A stretch of DNA of 64,000 nt from Deferribacteraceae bacterium V6Fe1 (GTDB lineage Bacteria; Chrysiogenota; Deferribacteres; Deferribacterales; Deferrivibrionaceae). Made by a program: the position numbers and the translations under genes. Below, in pieces: positions 45,958 to 59,560 of the stretch. The stretch covers positions 1,686,001 through 1,750,000 of the forward strand of contig CP063375.1 in NCBI GenBank assembly GCA_022813675.1, written 5' to 3'. Below the pieces are notes generated by a model. The model saw only the letters and a list, made by a program, of their open reading frames with translations, had not been told where the DNA came from and made no database searches. How positions within the stretch are numbered: position 1 is the stretch's first letter; the number at the start of each line of letters is the position of its first letter.

Positions 45958-48185
45958 GTGTTTACGAATCCTTTAAATATCCTGAAGTCGATGTTACGGT
46001 TGCAAGGGAAATGGGCTTAAAGCCTGAGGAATACGAGCTTGCAAAAAAGATAATAGGAAGAAATCCAAACTATATAGAGATAGGTATAATATCTTCAATG
46101 TGGAGTGAGCACTGCAGTTATAAAAGCAGCAAGCTTCACTTGAAAAAGCTTCCCACTGAAGCGGATTGGGTTGTGCAAGGTCCGGGGGAAAATGCAGGTA
46201 TTATTGAAATAGACGGAGATATTTGTGCATGTTTTAAAGTTGAGAGTCATAATCATCCGTCTTATATAGAGCCTTATCAAGGGGCTGCAACCGGAGTCGG
46301 TGGAATTTTAAGAGATGTCTTTACTATGGGAGCAAGGCCTGTTGCTGCTATGAATTCCTTGCGATTTGGCACACTTGATAACGATGAAACAATTAAAATC
46401 ATGGATGGAGTTGTAGCAGGAATTGCCGGATATGGAAACTGTTTTGGTGTGCCAACAGTTGGTGGAGAAGTCTTTTTTGATGAGTGTTATCAAAAAAATC
46501 CTCTTGTAAATGCATTTGCTCTTGGAATTGTCAAAAAGGATAAGATTTTTTTGGCAAAAGCCGAAGGTGTTGGTAATCCTATTATTTATGTCGGTGCAAA
46601 AACCGGCAGGGATGGCATTCATGGGGCAACAATGGCAAGCGAAGAATTTTCTGCCGATTCTGAAAGCAAGAGGCCTAATGTTCAGATTGGCGACCCATTT
46701 AAAGAAAAACTTTTGCTTGAAGCCTGCTTGGAGCTTATGAAAAATGAATATCTCATAGGCATTCAAGATATGGGAGCGGCAGGGCTGACAAGCTCCTCTT
46801 TTGAAATGGCATCAAAATCAGGTGCAGGTGTAAAGCTTTATCTTGATAAAGTCCCGGTCAGGGAAAAGAATATGACCCCTTATGAGATTATGCTCTCAGA
46901 GTCACAAGAGAGGATGCTTTTGGTGGCTAAAAAAGGGTATGAAAACAAAGTAGTGGAAATATTTAAAAAGTGGGATTTGGATGTTGCAACAATTGGTGAA
47001 GTGACTGATGATGGCTTTGTAAGATTATATTGGAATGGTGAAGAGGTTGCGGTTTTGCCGGCTGACCCGTTGTCAAATAATGCGCCGGTTTACGACAGGC
47101 CTTACAAGAAGCCTGATTATATTGATGAATTGAGAGATTTCAGTATTGGCAATTTAAAAGAGCCGACCGATTTGAACACATGTCTTTTTAATCTTTTAAA
47201 CAGTCCGAATATTGCTTCAAAAAGATGGGTTTACGAGCAATATGATTACATGGTCAGGACAAATACCGTGGTAAATCCCGGCTCTGATTCCGCCGTACTT
47301 AGAATTAAAGAGTCCCAAAAAGGTATAGCACTCTCAAGTGACTGTAATCCGAGATATTGTTATGTCAATCCAAAAAAAGGTGGCAGTCTTGCTGTGGCAG
47401 AGGCTGCAAGAAATGTTGCAATGAGCGGTGCCAGACCTCTTGCCATTACTAACTGTCTGAATTTTGGCAATCCTGAAAAGCCTGAAATTATGTGGCAATT
47501 TGTTGAAGTCCTTGAAGGGATGAAAGAAGCATGCCTTGCTCTGTCTACACCAGTTGTAAGCGGAAATGTCAGCTTCTACAATGAAACCGAAGGGAAGGGG
47601 GTATATCCCACACCTACAATCGTAATGGTTGGAGCAATTGATGATGTGACTAAGGCAATCAAGTCATCTTTTAGAAGCTTTGGAAGTTATATTGTTATAA
47701 TTGGAAAGGATAAATACGAGATAGGTGCAAGTGAATATTTGAAAGTTTGCCACTCCACTGTTGCAGGGGACGTGCCGGAAGTAGATTTAGATGCGGAAAA
47801 AAAGCTCATTGACTTTATGGTAAAAGCTGTTGATGAAAGGCTTATTAATTCTGCTCATGACATTTCGGAGGGTGGACTTGCCGTTGCACTTTCGGAAATG
47901 ACTTTGGAAAACGAGATAGGCTGCGAAGTCAGTTTTGATGAGAATATTCGCAATGACCTCTTGCTCTTTTCTGAAACACAGGCAAGAGGGATAATAGAGG
48001 TTAATTCCATAAATATTGAAAAAGTAGAAGAATTGTTAAGTAAGTTTGGCTTATATTATAAAATTGTAGGAAAAACGGTGGGCAATTCCATTATCATTAA
48101 AAATAAAGGGGAAAAGCTCATTGACGTAAATGTATTGGCCGCAAAATACATTTATGAAAATGCAATTAAAGGTAAGATGTTATGA
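45954..48185 (+). CDS. purL: FGAM synthase subunit II PurL
   Basis: ATP-dependent amidation of FGAR. The 743 residues correspond to the small PurL type that works with PurS and PurQ, not the fused 1290-residue form. Motifs: [13 protein letters not shown] with the catalytic His, [32 protein letters not shown], and in the second half [12 protein letters not shown]. It lies head-to-tail with purF (ATGA overlap). Confidence 0.97.
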
Positions 48186-49570
48186 TTTTTGACAAATTTA
48201 GAGAAGAGTGCGGCGTTGCCGGCGTTTACGGGGATGACGAGGCTGCAAACTTAGTATATTTGTGCCTTTATGCTTTACAACACAGAGGGCAGGAGGGAGC
48301 AGGGATAGCTGCTCTTGATGGCAATCAAATTCATGCTGAAAAAGGGCTTGGGCTTGTAAGTGATATATTTACACAGGAACGACTTAGTCGCCTTAATGGT
48401 AGTGTTGCAATCGGTCACAATAGATATTCGACATCCGGTGCAAATCTGCTGAAAAATACTCAACCGATAGTTGCTGAAATAAACAAAGGGCAGGTTGCCC
48501 TTGCTCATAACGGAAATATCGTAAATGCACACAAAATTAGAGAAAGACTTGTCCAAAACGGTGCCATTTTTACTTCGACTTCCGATAGTGAGATAATCAT
48601 TCACCTTATTGCAAAAAGTGAAAAAGATAACCTTGAAGATGCCATTATTGATTCTTTGTCGGAACTAAAAGGGGCATATTCCATCATCTTTATGACGGAA
48701 AATCATATGATTGGGATAAGAGATCCCCTTGGGATAAGGCCTCTTATTTTGGGCAAAAAAAGGACAGGTTACGTTTTGGTCAGTGAGACATGTGCGCTTG
48801 ATTTGATTGAAGCTGAGTTTATAAGGGAAATTGAGCCTGGAGAAATGATAATTATTGGTGAAGAAGGGATAAAAAGCGTGAAACCGTTTGATAAGGCGGT
48901 ACCAAAACCGTGTATATTTGAGTTTATATATTTTGCAAGGCCTGATTCACTCATCTTTAACAATTATGTTTACGATATAAGGAAAAAGATGGGTGCAAAG
49001 CTTGCTGAAGAAAATCCTGTTGATGCTGATATAGTCATCCCTGTTCCAGATTCCGGGATTGTCGCTACCCTTGGGTATTCTGAAAAAAGTGGAATCCCTT
49101 TTGAACTCGGATTGATAAGAAATCACTATGTTGGTAGAACATTTATCGAACCATCACAGTCAATTAGGCACTTTGGAGTAAAAATTAAGTTAAATCCGGT
49201 AAAATCGGTTATAAATGGAAAACGTATTGTGGTTGTGGATGATTCTATTGTAAGGGGAACAACAAGCAGAAAAATAGTAAAAATGCTGAGGGAAGCTGGC
49301 GCAAAAGAGGTACATTTCAGAGTGTCGTCACCACCCACAATGTTTCCATGCTTTTATGGTATCGATACCCCTACAAGAAAAGAGCTTATCGCTTCAACGC
49401 ATGATTTGGAAGAGATTAGGAAGTATATCACTGCTGACAGTCTTGGTTATTTGAGCTTGCAAGGGATGTGTCAATGTGTAGGTGAGATGAACTATTGTGA
49501 TGCATGCTTCAGCGGTGACTATCCAACGATGTATATTGACGAAGATGAGTTTAATCCTAAGGTAAATTAA
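48182..49570 (+). CDS. purF: Amidophosphoribosyltransferase PurF
   Basis: First committed step of purine synthesis: PRPP plus glutamine to phosphoribosylamine. The 462 residues begin with a short propeptide ending before the nucleophile in [10 protein letters not shown]; the PRPP loop is [14 protein letters not shown]. Cysteines in [19 protein letters not shown] near the C-terminus, with an internal Cys, are typical of the [4Fe-4S] Bacillus-type enzyme, in which the cluster makes it oxygen-sensitive. The UGA-containing gene follows after 14 nt. Confidence 0.97.
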
Positions 49571-49584
49571 TAAAGAGGTGGATA

Positions 49585-49935
49585 ATGGAAAAAAGTAAAA
49601 TTAGGCTTTTTGGCACAAGTATGGATTTTGTGTCCGGCTGAAGCCCATCATATTTTCCTGCAGGTTGCGGGACAACAACTGACCCATATTTTGAGCTTTC
49701 AAAAGATTTGGATGCATTGTTAACAAAAAAGCTTGGTGCAGAAAGCTTTGAATTGCAGTATGTGGATATATCTTCACCTGAGGTGCTTGATTATATCGAC
49801 GATGTGAATACTATTGTGGAAAACAGACTGCCGTTGCCGTATGTTTCTCTAAATGACAAACCGTTATGTTGGGGTTTGGAAGACCCTGAAAAGATATGTG
49901 ATAAGGTTCTCGAAAAGGTAGGGAGTGATGCATAA
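49585..49935 (+). CDS. Putative selenoprotein, thioredoxin-like fold, with in-frame UGA at codon 19
   Basis: An ATG with AGAGGTGG upstream opens a frame of 116 codons, interrupted only by TGA at 49639-49641. Read as selenocysteine, residues 1-41 give KIRLFGTS (first strand), then G-U19-S-P-S with Cys28 nearby. They join smoothly to a helix, the strand FELQYVDISS, a helix and LPLPYVSLND, which resembles the cis-proline strand of thioredoxins; YuzD-type proteins have a similar order. A UxxS redox motif is thus likely. A SECIS-like hairpin follows at 49653-49675. TGA ends many other genes in the window, so general recoding is excluded. Without UGA readthrough only the last 75 residues would be made, with no ribosome site. 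Confidence 0.75.
49653..49675 (+). promoter_or_regulatory. Candidate bacterial SECIS element
   Basis: CCTGCA (49657-49662) pairs with TGCGGG (49666-49671) around a GGT loop; T-A pairs extend the stem outwards with one mismatch. The loop begins 22 nt after the UGA, within the usual bacterial range of roughly 16-37 nt, and has the G and U expected by SelB. GC-AGGTT-GC is like the apex of the E. coli fdhF element. The same bases encode protein. Confidence 0.6.
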
Positions 49936-49958
49936 GCGGCCCAGGGGCCGCTTTTTTT
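49935..49958 (+). terminator. Intrinsic terminator of the purSQLF-selenoprotein operon
   Basis: AGCGGCCC and GGGCCGCT pair perfectly over 8 bp with a 2-base loop, followed by seven T. It lies directly after the selenoprotein stop codon, showing that the transcript runs through that gene. The convergent kinase gene ends 5 nt beyond. Confidence 0.9.
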
Positions 49959-54306: not shown

Positions 54307-54888
54307 TTGACCGACGCACAGATAATTGAAAAAATACTTTCAGGGAAGACAGAGCTTTTTGAGCTTTTGGTAATAAAATATCAGCAGCAGCTATTTTCGA
54401 CACTTATTAATATTACTAAAGATTACAATATGGCTGAAGAGTTTGTTCAGGATGCATTTGTAAAGGCTTTTGAAAAGCTTGATATGTTGAAAAACAGAGA
54501 CCAATTTTATGCTTGGATAAAGAGGATTGCCATAAATAATGCATTTATGCACTTTGAAAAACACCGTAGAATGGTTGATGTTGACCGTGATATAGATGAA
54601 AATAATGAATCCTTTTTTGACAGGATATCTGATTACTCTAATCCTGAAGAAGAGCTTCTTACTGATGAAATGAGAAAATATGTAAGAAAATTTGTGGATG
54701 CTCTTCCTGACAAGCTAAGGACAGTTATTATCTTAAGAGAAGTGGAAGATTATAGTTATGAAGAGATAGCTGAAATGCTGAATATTCCTATTGGGACGGT
54801 AAGGTCAAGACTATTTAATGCCAGACAGTTTATAAAACAAAGATTGATAAGACAGGGGTTGGCTGATGAAATGTCAAAAGTATCATAA
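54307..54888 (+). CDS. rpoE: ECF sigma factor, RpoE-like
   Basis: A 193-residue sigma factor with regions 2 (LVIKYQQQLFSTLINITKDYNMAEEFVQDAFVKAFEKLDML, then FYAWIKRIAINNAFMHFEK) and 4 (LPDKLRTVIILREVEDYSYEEIAEMLNIPIGTVRSRLFNARQ) only. TTG start at 54307, chosen by TAGGAGG six bases before. A zinc-type anti-sigma gene overlaps its end by 23 nt, and RseB-like and HtrA genes follow: the layout of the sigmaE envelope-stress systems of Proteobacteria (rpoE/algU-rseA-rseB-degP). Confidence 0.93.
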   Translation: MTDAQIIEKILSGKTELFELLVIKYQQQLFSTLINITKDYNMAEEFVQDAFVKAFEKLDMLKNRDQFYAWIKRIAINNAFMHFEKHRRMVDVDRDIDENNESFFDRISDYSNPEEELLTDEMRKYVRKFVDALPDKLRTVIILREVEDYSYEEIAEMLNIPIGTVRSRLFNARQFIKQRLIRQGLADEMSKVS

Positions 54889-56059: not shown

Positions 56060-57424
56060 ATGAAGAAGTTACTGACTATTTTTACAATGTTGTTTCTGGT
56101 GGCTGTGCAAAGTTATGCATTTACTCCCGACTCATTTTCGGATGTGGTAAAAAAGACAAAAAACAGTGTGGTTAATATTAGCACTACCAAGATAATTAAA
56201 AGGAAGCCTATCCCTGATTTTTTTAATGATGACCTTTTTAAAAGATTTTTTGGCGATCAGTTTGATAATTTTCACAATAACGCCCCGCAAGAATACAAAT
56301 CAAAATCTCTTGGCTCAGGTTTTGTGATTGATGCCAAAGAGGGATATATTGTTACTAATAATCATGTTATAGAAGGGGCAGATGAAATCCTCATCAAATT
56401 TACCGATAATAATGAAATACCCGCACAGGTGGTAGGGCGAGACCCACTCACAGACCTTGCTTTGCTGAAAATTGACCCTAAAAAAGAAGAGTTGTATGAG
56501 ATAGAGCTTGGTAATTCTGACAAAATTGAAGTCGGGGATTGGGTAGTAGCTATCGGTAACCCATTTGGGCTTTCCTGGACTGTAACCGCAGGTATTATTA
56601 GTGCCAAAGGGAGAGAATTGGGTGAAGGACCATATGATAATTTTATGCAGACAGATGCTTCCATCAATCCCGGGAATAGTGGCGGTCCTTTGGTAAATTT
56701 GGACGGAGAAGTTATCGGTATAAACACAGCCATAATTCCGTCAGGGCAGGGGCTTGGGTTTGCAATTCCTGTTAATATGTTAAAAGACCTTCTTCCAAAG
56801 CTTAAGAAAGGTGAGGTTAAGAGAGGTTGGCTTGGTGTTGTATTGCAGGAAATGGATGAAAAATTAGCAAAAACTTTTGGACTTGACAAGCCTGAAGGGG
56901 CATTGGTATCCGATGTGATAAAAGGTGACCCGGCTGATAAAGCAGGACTTAGAGCTGGTGATATAATTCTTGAAATTAACGGTAACAAGCTTGAAAATCA
57001 AAAAGAGCTTATAAATATTATTGGGTCAAAATCACCAGGTGATACCGTTGTATTGAAAGTATTGAGAGATGGCAAAAAGACAGATATCAAAGTTAAGCTC
57101 GGAGAAAGAAAAGGTACTGTAAAAGTTGGCAAATCAAAAATTAGAGAAGATGTACCGGTGTCTGTGGAAGATTTGACCGAAAACGAAATGAAGCAGCTTA
57201 ATATTAATTTTGGTGTAAAGGTTATAGATGTGGATGCTACCTCTAATGCTTATGAAGCAGGCCTCAGAAAAGGTGATATAATTGTATGGATTAATAGAAA
57301 AGAGGTAAAGAGCAGTGAGGATTTTTACAAGATTTACGATTCAATTAAAAAAGATGAAGTCGTAGGTCTTAAAGTAATTTCCAGAAACGGTAGCAGGTTT
57401 TTGGCTTTTAATAAGGATAAATAA
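56060..57424 (+). CDS. htrA: Periplasmic serine protease HtrA/DegP
   Basis: A 454-residue exported protease and chaperone: signal peptide at residues 1-20, trypsin-like domain (about 28-255) and two PDZ domains (about 262-350 and 370-450). The catalytic triad is complete: His in TNNHVIEGAD, Asp in DPLTDLALLKI, Ser in INPGNSGGPLVN. It degrades misfolded envelope proteins, and it closes the ECF sigma operon. The last 77 bases and its terminator are duplicated 2.2 kb downstream on the far side of the IS. Confidence 0.97.
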   Translation: MKKLLTIFTMLFLVAVQSYAFTPDSFSDVVKKTKNSVVNISTTKIIKRKPIPDFFNDDLFKRFFGDQFDNFHNNAPQEYKSKSLGSGFVIDAKEGYIVTNNHVIEGADEILIKFTDNNEIPAQVVGRDPLTDLALLKIDPKKEELYEIELGNSDKIEVGDWVVAIGNPFGLSWTVTAGIISAKGRELGEGPYDNFMQTDASINPGNSGGPLVNLDGEVIGINTAIIPSGQGLGFAIPVNMLKDLLPKLKKGEVKRGWLGVVLQEMDEKLAKTFGLDKPEGALVSDVIKGDPADKAGLRAGDIILEINGNKLENQKELINIIGSKSPGDTVVLKVLRDGKKTDIKVKLGERKGTVKVGKSKIREDVPVSVEDLTENEMKQLNINFGVKVIDVDATSNAYEAGLRKGDIIVWINRKEVKSSEDFYKIYDSIKKDEVVGLKVISRNGSRFLAFNKDK

Positions 57425-57639: not shown

Positions 57640-59560
57640 CCTGACTTTGACACTTTCACTTGAAAATTTTCCAATAAAAGTGGCAAGAAGCCAGTAAATA
57701 CAGGGGTGTTAATTTCTGTGCTCCATATTTTGTAGTGGCAACTTATTGATAGATAATATGTTTTATATTGATGTTTTTATGCATTTTTTTCTTGACATAT
57801 TTACTACTTTTGTAGTATATATAGCCATGTACTTGAAAAAAACTCGCTCTAAACAATATACTTACCTGCAAGTTGTAGAATCATATAGAGACGACAATGG
57901 TGTCCCAAGACATAAAGTACTATTTAATTTAGGCAGATTAGATATCCTAAAAAAAGACCCATCTTTTGCCACTGTAATAGATAAAATAAGAGAAGAGATT
58001 TCTGAATCTACTAAACCTGAGTTTAAAGATATATCTGATGCTGATATAGTGAATTGGGGCTATAAGATATATGAGAAGCTCTGGAAGATGTTTGAGCTGG
58101 ATAAGACACTTGATGATATACAGAAAAACAGTAAAGCCAGGTTTGATTTACAATCGAGTTGTTTCCGTATGGTAATAGAGCACTTATTAGAGCCTAAGAG
58201 TAAGCTTGGAGTTTATGCAAATCAGAATAGGTATTACAATATTCCTGAAGTAGAGCTTCATCATTTTTATAGAAGCCTTGATATATTATCGGAATATAAG
58301 GAGCTTTTAGAGGATAAATTATTTTATAAAAATTTTAGCGTATTTAATTTAAAAGTAGATATAGTTTTTTATGATGTAACGACCTTTTATTTTGAGAGTG
58401 TCAGGTCAGATAGTTTAAGAGAATTTGGCTTTAGTAAAGATGGTAAGTTTAATGAGGTACAGATTGTATTTGGTTTACTTGTTGATATGGAAGGTCGTCC
58501 TATTGGTTATGAACTATTTCCTGGGAATACTTTTGAGGGTAAGACCCTTGAGAAGGCATTATTTAAATTAAATGAACGATTTAATTTAAATAAAGTTATA
58601 ATAGTTGCAGATAGGGGCTTAAACAGTAAGATTAATTTAAAGCTGATAAAAGATAATGGATTTGATTATATAGTTGCAAGCAGACTAAAGAGTTTGCCAT
58701 CAGATATTCAATCCGAGATATTTATGGATGAAGGTTACAATTTTATAAAATCGGATGAAGAGGATATTTTTAAATATAAGAGTATAGATTACAAGAATAA
58801 AGTTTCTTTGGGTAATGGTTCTGTAGCTGTTTTGGATGAGAAGTTAATAGTAACATATTCTTCTAAAAGGAGTAAGAAGGATAAAGCAGACAGGCAAAGA
58901 CTTATAGACAAGGCTAATCATTTGCTTGAAAATGAATCATTGATAAAATCCTCTTTTAAGAGAGGTGGCAAGAAGTTTTTAAAGGAAGAATCCTCAAACA
59001 AAGAAAAATGTTATAAACTTGATGAGGCTGCGATTGAGAAGGATGAGCGCTTTGATGGATATTATGGTATACAGACAAGTGAAACGAATTTATCTGAGAT
59101 AGATGTAATAGATGCATATCACAATTTGTGGAAGATAGAAGAATCTTTTAGAATAATGAAGAGTAAATTAGAGGTACGTCCGATATTTCATTGGACGGAG
59201 AAGCGTATTAAAGGGCACTTTGTAGTTTGCTTTTTAGCATTTTTACTTGAGAGGACATTGGAACATAAGCTTAGAACGGCTGATATAAAAGCATCATCGA
59301 GAGATGTAAGAAGTACAATTAACTCTATGAATTTTGCAAGATTTGAATCTAAGGGTCAGACTTATCTGCTTAAAACTAAATTTGGCAGTTTGGGCAGTCA
59401 TATATTAAGAGCACTTAGAATCCCACCGCCTAAGAATCTTTCCACCCCTGATGAGTTGAAATTTTAATCTAAAAATCACCTGTAGTGACAAAATGTACAA
59501 ACCTAAAATAATAAAATTATTATCTACAATTACTTATAAAATCAAAGTGTCAAAGACAGG
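57640..59560 (+). mobile_element. IS1634-family insertion sequence, 1921 bp
   Basis: The ends are imperfect inverted repeats that begin CCTG: 57640-57661 and the complement of 59539-59560 match at 19 of 22 positions. Between them is one transposase gene on the plus strand, with 187 bases before its ATG and 93 bases after the stop, and no passenger gene. It is flanked by identical 292-bp direct repeats. IS1634 and its relative IS1549 are known for long, variable target duplications, which agrees with the transposase type. The identity of the repeats suggests recent insertion. Confidence 0.92.
57827..59467 (+). CDS. DDE transposase of the IS1634 family
   Basis: About 546 residues from the ATG at 57827 (MYLKKTRSKQYTYLQVVESYRD, where the family begins); an in-frame TTG at 57746 would add 27 residues of poor match. 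The DDE residues lie in VFYDVTTFYFES, IIVADRGLNSKIN and LWKIEESFRIMKSKL, on the usual DDE_Tnp_1/IS4-like plan with a beta-strand insertion before the glutamate. FHWTEKRIKGHFVVCFLAFLLER follows. The reading frame is intact, so the element may be active. Confidence 0.93.
   Translation: MYLKKTRSKQYTYLQVVESYRDDNGVPRHKVLFNLGRLDILKKDPSFATVIDKIREEISESTKPEFKDISDADIVNWGYKIYEKLWKMFELDKTLDDIQKNSKARFDLQSSCFRMVIEHLLEPKSKLGVYANQNRYYNIPEVELHHFYRSLDILSEYKELLEDKLFYKNFSVFNLKVDIVFYDVTTFYFESVRSDSLREFGFSKDGKFNEVQIVFGLLVDMEGRPIGYELFPGNTFEGKTLEKALFKLNERFNLNKVIIVADRGLNSKINLKLIKDNGFDYIVASRLKSLPSDIQSEIFMDEGYNFIKSDEEDIFKYKSIDYKNKVSLGNGSVAVLDEKLIVTYSSKRSKKDKADRQRLIDKANHLLENESLIKSSFKRGGKKFLKEESSNKEKCYKLDEAAIEKDERFDGYYGIQTSETNLSEIDVIDAYHNLWKIEESFRIMKSKLEVRPIFHWTEKRIKGHFVVCFLAFLLERTLEHKLRTADIKASSRDVRSTINSMNFARFESKGQTYLLKTKFGSLGSHILRALRIPPPKNLSTPDELKF

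Follow-up and report, generated by a model that had tools for sequence, protein, structure and literature searches.

A probable selenoprotein of the thioredoxin fold encoded directly behind purF, from an apparently unlisted family spread over selenium-using Deferribacterales

In proteins of the thioredoxin fold the active-site cysteine pair sits in the loop that joins strand 1 to helix 1. The known selenoproteins of this fold, for example Trx UxxC, Grx UxxC, VPGUxxT (NF041383) and the thioredoxin-like Sec.1/Sec.2 (PF13192), carry selenocysteine (Sec) in that loop, in motifs such as UxxC or CxxU, and are encoded with a UGA and a bacterial SECIS. A thioredoxin-like fold is found in the majority of known selenoproteins, to which diverse redox roles are ascribed (PMC13188914). 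A further thioredoxin-fold group of similar length, DUF1462/YuzD (PF07315), is represented by SA0798 of S. aureus (PDB 1xg8). We found no paper in the open literature on the function of YuzD, DUF1462 or SA0798, and we know of no earlier Sec-containing relative of these uncharacterised proteins. Here we describe a gene in the window (the whole stretch of DNA analysed, 64,000 nucleotides) which appears to encode a selenoprotein that shares the fold, the Sec in the active-site loop and the UGA with a bacterial-type hairpin, but which has the motif SGUxPS...GCG (U, eight residues, C) in place of UxxC or CxxU. The features of the locus are as follows.

48182..49570, + strand: purF, amidophosphoribosyltransferase, with a short propeptide before Cys10 and a [4Fe-4S]-type Cys motif (from the sequence)
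49574..49581, + strand: ribosome-binding site AGAGGTGG (read directly from the sequence)
49585..49935, + strand: UGA-containing gene for a predicted 116-residue thioredoxin-fold selenoprotein (homology, alignment, fold model, selection)
49639..49641, + strand: predicted Sec codon UGA, residue 19 (TGA in 20/20 orthologues and the paralogue)
49656..49672, + strand: SECIS-type hairpin with a 7-bp stem, UCCUGCA/UGCGGGA, and loop GGU (covariation; synonymous-codon simulation)
49666..49668, + strand: codon of Cys28, the probable resolving thiol, forming the first 3 bases of the 3' arm of the hairpin (Cys in 19/19 distinct orthologues)
49837..49839, + strand: codon of Pro85, probable cis-Pro of the thioredoxin fold (invariant in the orthologue alignment and YuzD; directly before model strand 86-89)
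49934..49953, + strand: intrinsic terminator of the pur operon, overlapping the selenoprotein stop codon (hairpin and T run)

The frame begins 14 nt after the purF stop and translates as MEKSKIRLFGTSMDFVSGUSPSYFPAGCG...VGSDA*. An earlier reading made from the sequence alone (the sequence-only reading) had described a single in-frame TGA at codon 19 in the context G-U-S-P-S, a good ribosome site before the frame and a frame that reaches the operon terminator. All of this agrees with our analysis: the TGA is the only one in the frame, and the TAA stop (49933-49935) overlaps the stem of the terminator-like hairpin, which is followed by a T run. TGA is also, as had been pointed out, an ordinary stop nearby, where it ends purQ, purL, the first gntR and the ORF at 54866.

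When 51 genomes of the phylum were searched with the protein, 21 loci turned up in 19 of them, every one with a TGA inside, and a profile search of the same genomes returned the same set. Twenty of the loci, from 19 genomes, five families and seven genera, are orthologues with 52-97% identity to the window protein, while the remaining one is a distant paralogue (26%). Each orthologue has one TGA, always in the same place, which disposes of the concern that the TGA might be a sequencing error. In the alignment, where each of the 19 other orthologues is present or identical to a sequence that is, Ser17, Gly18, Sec19 and Pro21 are invariant even when the paralogue is included, Cys28 is kept in every orthologue, and residues 1-41 are conserved throughout. 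The dN/dS is ~0.15 upstream of the UGA and ~0.18 downstream, indicating purifying selection on both sides. The TGA could in principle be an ordinary stop, in which case the locus would be a decaying pseudogene or the real gene would be a shorter downstream ORF, and a TTG-started ORF of 75 aa does lie at 49708-49935. This reading is hard to reconcile with purifying selection on both sides of a UGA found in 20/20 orthologues, or with the conservation of residues 1-41, the opposite of the start at a later methionine that had been named as a refuting outcome. Five orthologues have no in-frame ATG, GTG or TTG between codons 20 and 51, and a separate downstream gene is therefore ruled out. On the combined evidence of residues 1-41, dN/dS and missing starts we rejected both the downstream start and the pseudogene, and the chance that the TGA is a plain stop is, in our judgement, negligible.

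Decoding of the UGA as Sec would need the corresponding machinery, for which the sequence-only reading had suggested a search, and the 2.36 Mb single contig that contains the window also has selA, selB (above the cut-off), a tRNA-Sec (60.7 bits against a cut-off of 47) and selD. The host selD (G000:C1:681143-682054) has an in-frame TGA of its own in the context KAAGUAAKIG, and shortly 3' of it a 7-bp stem closes a GGA loop. The likeness to the new gene lies in the in-frame UGA and in a 7-bp hairpin behind it whose 3-nt loop starts with G; the difference is that selD encodes a selenophosphate-synthesis enzyme that has long been known as a selenoprotein. Across the phylum SelA was found in 21 genomes (one match being doubtful), and the gene is present in 19 of these 21 and in 0/30 SelA-negative genomes. 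One of the two SelA-positive genomes that lack it, G015, is an assembly 88% complete in which purF is missing too; the other, G050, has SelA and purF and seems to be a true absence. The doubtful SelA match belongs to G013, a genome 87% complete in which the gene is present. Genus g6 has neither selA nor the gene, though its family has both, and nothing similar to the selenoprotein gene was found 3' of its purF; nor did the SelA-less relatives show a remnant or a version with Cys at this position. The evidence for recoding thus consists of a conserved frame, a conserved UGA, the hairpin, the Sec machinery and the co-occurrence of gene and machinery.

The sequence-only reading had placed a hairpin of bacterial SECIS type 22 nt after the UGA. 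The hairpin is there, with its stem at 49656-49662 / 49666-49672, and the distance of its GGU loop, 21 nt, fits, while the stem itself starts at 14 nt. Taken singly, the window hairpin is no more stable than its shuffles (z = -0.06), and since the energy of one sequence is not informative the case for it rests on comparison. Across 18 aligned sequences 93.7% of the cells of the 7-bp stem are paired, and compensatory changes are seen in 12 cells, against 3.5 in shuffles; none of 500 shuffles attains the observed pairing percentage or covariation score, and sliding the stem position lowers pairing to 39-56%. The first stem pair is C-G in some sequences and U-A in others, a switch made at the synonymous third base of Phe24. 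Codon 26 reads NCA in every case, whether it encodes Ala, Ser or Thr, and the Gly29 codon is GGG in 18/19. When synonymous codons were redrawn according to the codon usage of each purL-purF and the protein was left unchanged, 84.4 +/- 3.9 pairs were kept, compared with 125/133 observed (0/2000 simulations), and for seven representatives of different groups the figures are 31.5 expected and 46/49 observed (0/5000). Synonymous codon choice thus appears to be constrained in a way that preserves the hairpin. No selenocysteine family of Rfam matches the hairpin; the G in a small apical loop and the pairs kept by compensatory or synonymous changes are those of a bacterial SECIS. Given this synonymous constraint, the TGA in 20/20 orthologues and the dN/dS of ~0.15 and ~0.18, chance is excluded.

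It could also be proposed that the UGA is read through as a residue other than Sec, be it Trp, Cys or the product of a near-cognate suppressor. The same frame would result, and nothing specific points this way; TGA stops several adjacent genes, the SECIS-type hairpin is conserved and accompanied by the full Sec machinery, and the gene is absent from SelA-less relatives. We regard such read-through as very improbable, and Sec insertion at UGA19 as virtually certain. The local recoding that had been put forward as probable is supported by the UGA in 20/20 orthologues, the presence of the Sec machinery and the conserved hairpin. With any action on PurF left out of the figure, we estimate a probability of about 0.95 that the gene encodes a Sec-containing redox protein.

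A thioredoxin-like order of secondary structure and a resemblance to YuzD had likewise been suggested from the sequence, and both hold up. An AlphaFold2 model built on the alignment has the order b-a-b-a-b-b-a with a mean pLDDT of 78, falling below 50 around the Sec at residues 15-30, where the model is weak. Among PDB structures its fold comes closest to 1xg8 (E = 2.2e-4, TM about 0.55-0.59), which is also the top PDB chain in a profile search (E = 0.001), and hhalign against SA0798, whose residues 2-103 as compared here are identical letter for letter to chain 1xg8_A, gives E = 1.5e-5. PF07315 matches the window protein with E = 3e-4. In the joint alignment, at 21% identity with YuzD, the second Cys of the SA0798 motif CASC falls on Sec19, and Pro85, which precedes the third strand, is conserved in the orthologues and in YuzD. 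The protein may then be simply a DUF1462/YuzD member with Cys changed to Sec and a function as in Bacillus and Staphylococcus. This would account for the PF07315 matches to 16/20 members (best E 1.2e-5), for 1xg8 as the top match by both profile and fold, and for the Cys on the Sec column. The window protein, however, scores 21.4 bits against a gathering score of 25, and the match begins only at residue 40; the C-terminal two thirds can be aligned. It further differs in that the place of the first CASC Cys is taken by Val16 (Glu in one group), in its longer active-site loop, GUSPSYFPxGCG, with a new invariant Cys28, and in its gene order with purF. We consider the simple Cys-to-Sec reading possible but somewhat doubtful and, because the score lies below the cut-off and the CxxC pair is incomplete, we do not claim membership in DUF1462.

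The search for homologues with Cys aligned to codon 19 that had been proposed was only partly rewarded. Protein and profile searches of the 51 genomes revealed no Cys form at the Sec site in the phylum, and the sole counterpart found is the second active-site Cys of the distant YuzD. Beyond the phylum, a single-sequence scan of genome contigs found only a Deferribacteraceae MAG, and searches of plasmids and viral contigs found no homologues. The impression that this is not a named selenoprotein agrees with the comparisons made here. The window protein matches no family among the NCBIfam models, even at E = 10. The 119-family inventory of prokaryotic selenoproteins (PMC13188914, May 2026) holds no DUF1462, PF07315, YuzD or purF-linked entry, and there is no DUF1462, YuzD or purF-linked entry among the new families of deep-Sep (PMC12013277) or in the part covered of an 87-family list (PMC9312934). 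A search of the open literature found no paper joining 'selenoprotein' and 'DUF1462'. The protein thus appears to be a real selenoprotein whose family is missing from published lists, and the known set would gain one family; standard annotation would split the gene at the UGA. The Sec-containing relative also suggests that DUF1462/YuzD proteins have a redox function and that, throughout the group, the Cys aligned with Sec is probably the catalytic residue.

Sec19 would occupy the strand 1-helix 1 loop, facing the invariant Pro85, and probably forms a redox pair with Cys28. We suggest that SelB carrying Sec-tRNA-Sec binds the GGU-loop hairpin just 3' of UGA19, that the ribosome would then insert selenocysteine instead of stopping, and that Sec19 of the resulting 116-residue thioredoxin-fold protein would cycle through a selenenylsulfide with Cys28, making it a thiol/selenol oxidoreductase of an anaerobic cell. 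The paralogue, found in one genome only (G023:C2:132646-132975; L062:4026-4385, - strand), begins MEECTSGUMPLPVAPVGG... and has the form CxxxU: Cys28 is absent and a Cys lies four residues before the UGA instead. Just 3' of its UGA stands a separate hairpin whose stem is GC-rich, and we take the paralogue to be another selenoprotein of this fold, only distantly related. The partner thiol thus shifts its place, yet one is always present, which fits a selenenylsulfide cycle.

The gene lies directly 3' of purF at 20/20 orthologue loci in five families, and with so fixed a position a connection of selenium with purine synthesis can be tested. In the window PurF a propeptide of nine residues precedes Cys10, and the Cys motifs are CIFE, FPC and CDAC, whose cysteines are presumably the ligand set of a B. 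subtilis-type [4Fe-4S] cluster. The sequence-only reading had inferred a redox-linked role from cotranscription with a [4Fe-4S] PurF. The gene order bears out the association, but not the function, since Sec-less relatives keep the cluster motif of PurF and lack the gene; an effect on PurF would therefore not be essential in them. Judged by gene order alone, PurF, through its cysteines or its oxygen-sensitive [4Fe-4S] cluster, is the likeliest single client, although we think it unlikely to be the actual one. The fuller proposal, in which the Sec-Cys28 pair of an unlisted family controls the redox state of the [4Fe-4S] cluster or the catalytic cysteines of PurF, repairs them or protects them, is more speculative still; if it were right, the opening step of purine synthesis in anaerobes would be coupled to selenium supply. 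We lean slightly towards a true selenoprotein unrelated to PurF, that is, a thiol oxidoreductase of general use or a protein that handles peroxide or metals, carried as a passenger of the pur operon. The PurF Cys motif is kept in relatives without the gene, the G023 paralogue is away from purF, and a thioredoxin-like fold with varied redox roles is typical of selenoproteins (PMC13188914). Against this, 20/20 loci behind purF in five families would be a strong association for a general redox gene.

Some further observations concern PurF and its surroundings. PurF has an extra Cys close to its C-terminus (MCQC, MxEC, LxDC) in lineages where SelA is present or was probably once present, and also in G050; the place in the window is Cys430/Cys432 at 49469-49477 (compared loci L043-L061 and L085-L095). 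The extra Cys is absent in the SelA-less families looked at, f7 and f10, and could possibly be a thiol target. One genome, G025, has two different purQ-purL-purF-selenoprotein blocks (L051 on C7 and L056 on C16), reflecting either a true duplication or a mixed assembly. Elsewhere in the window, the ORF at 56060-57424 resembles an HtrA-type serine protease, and downstream of it lies a DDE transposase gene (PF01609) at 57746-59464.
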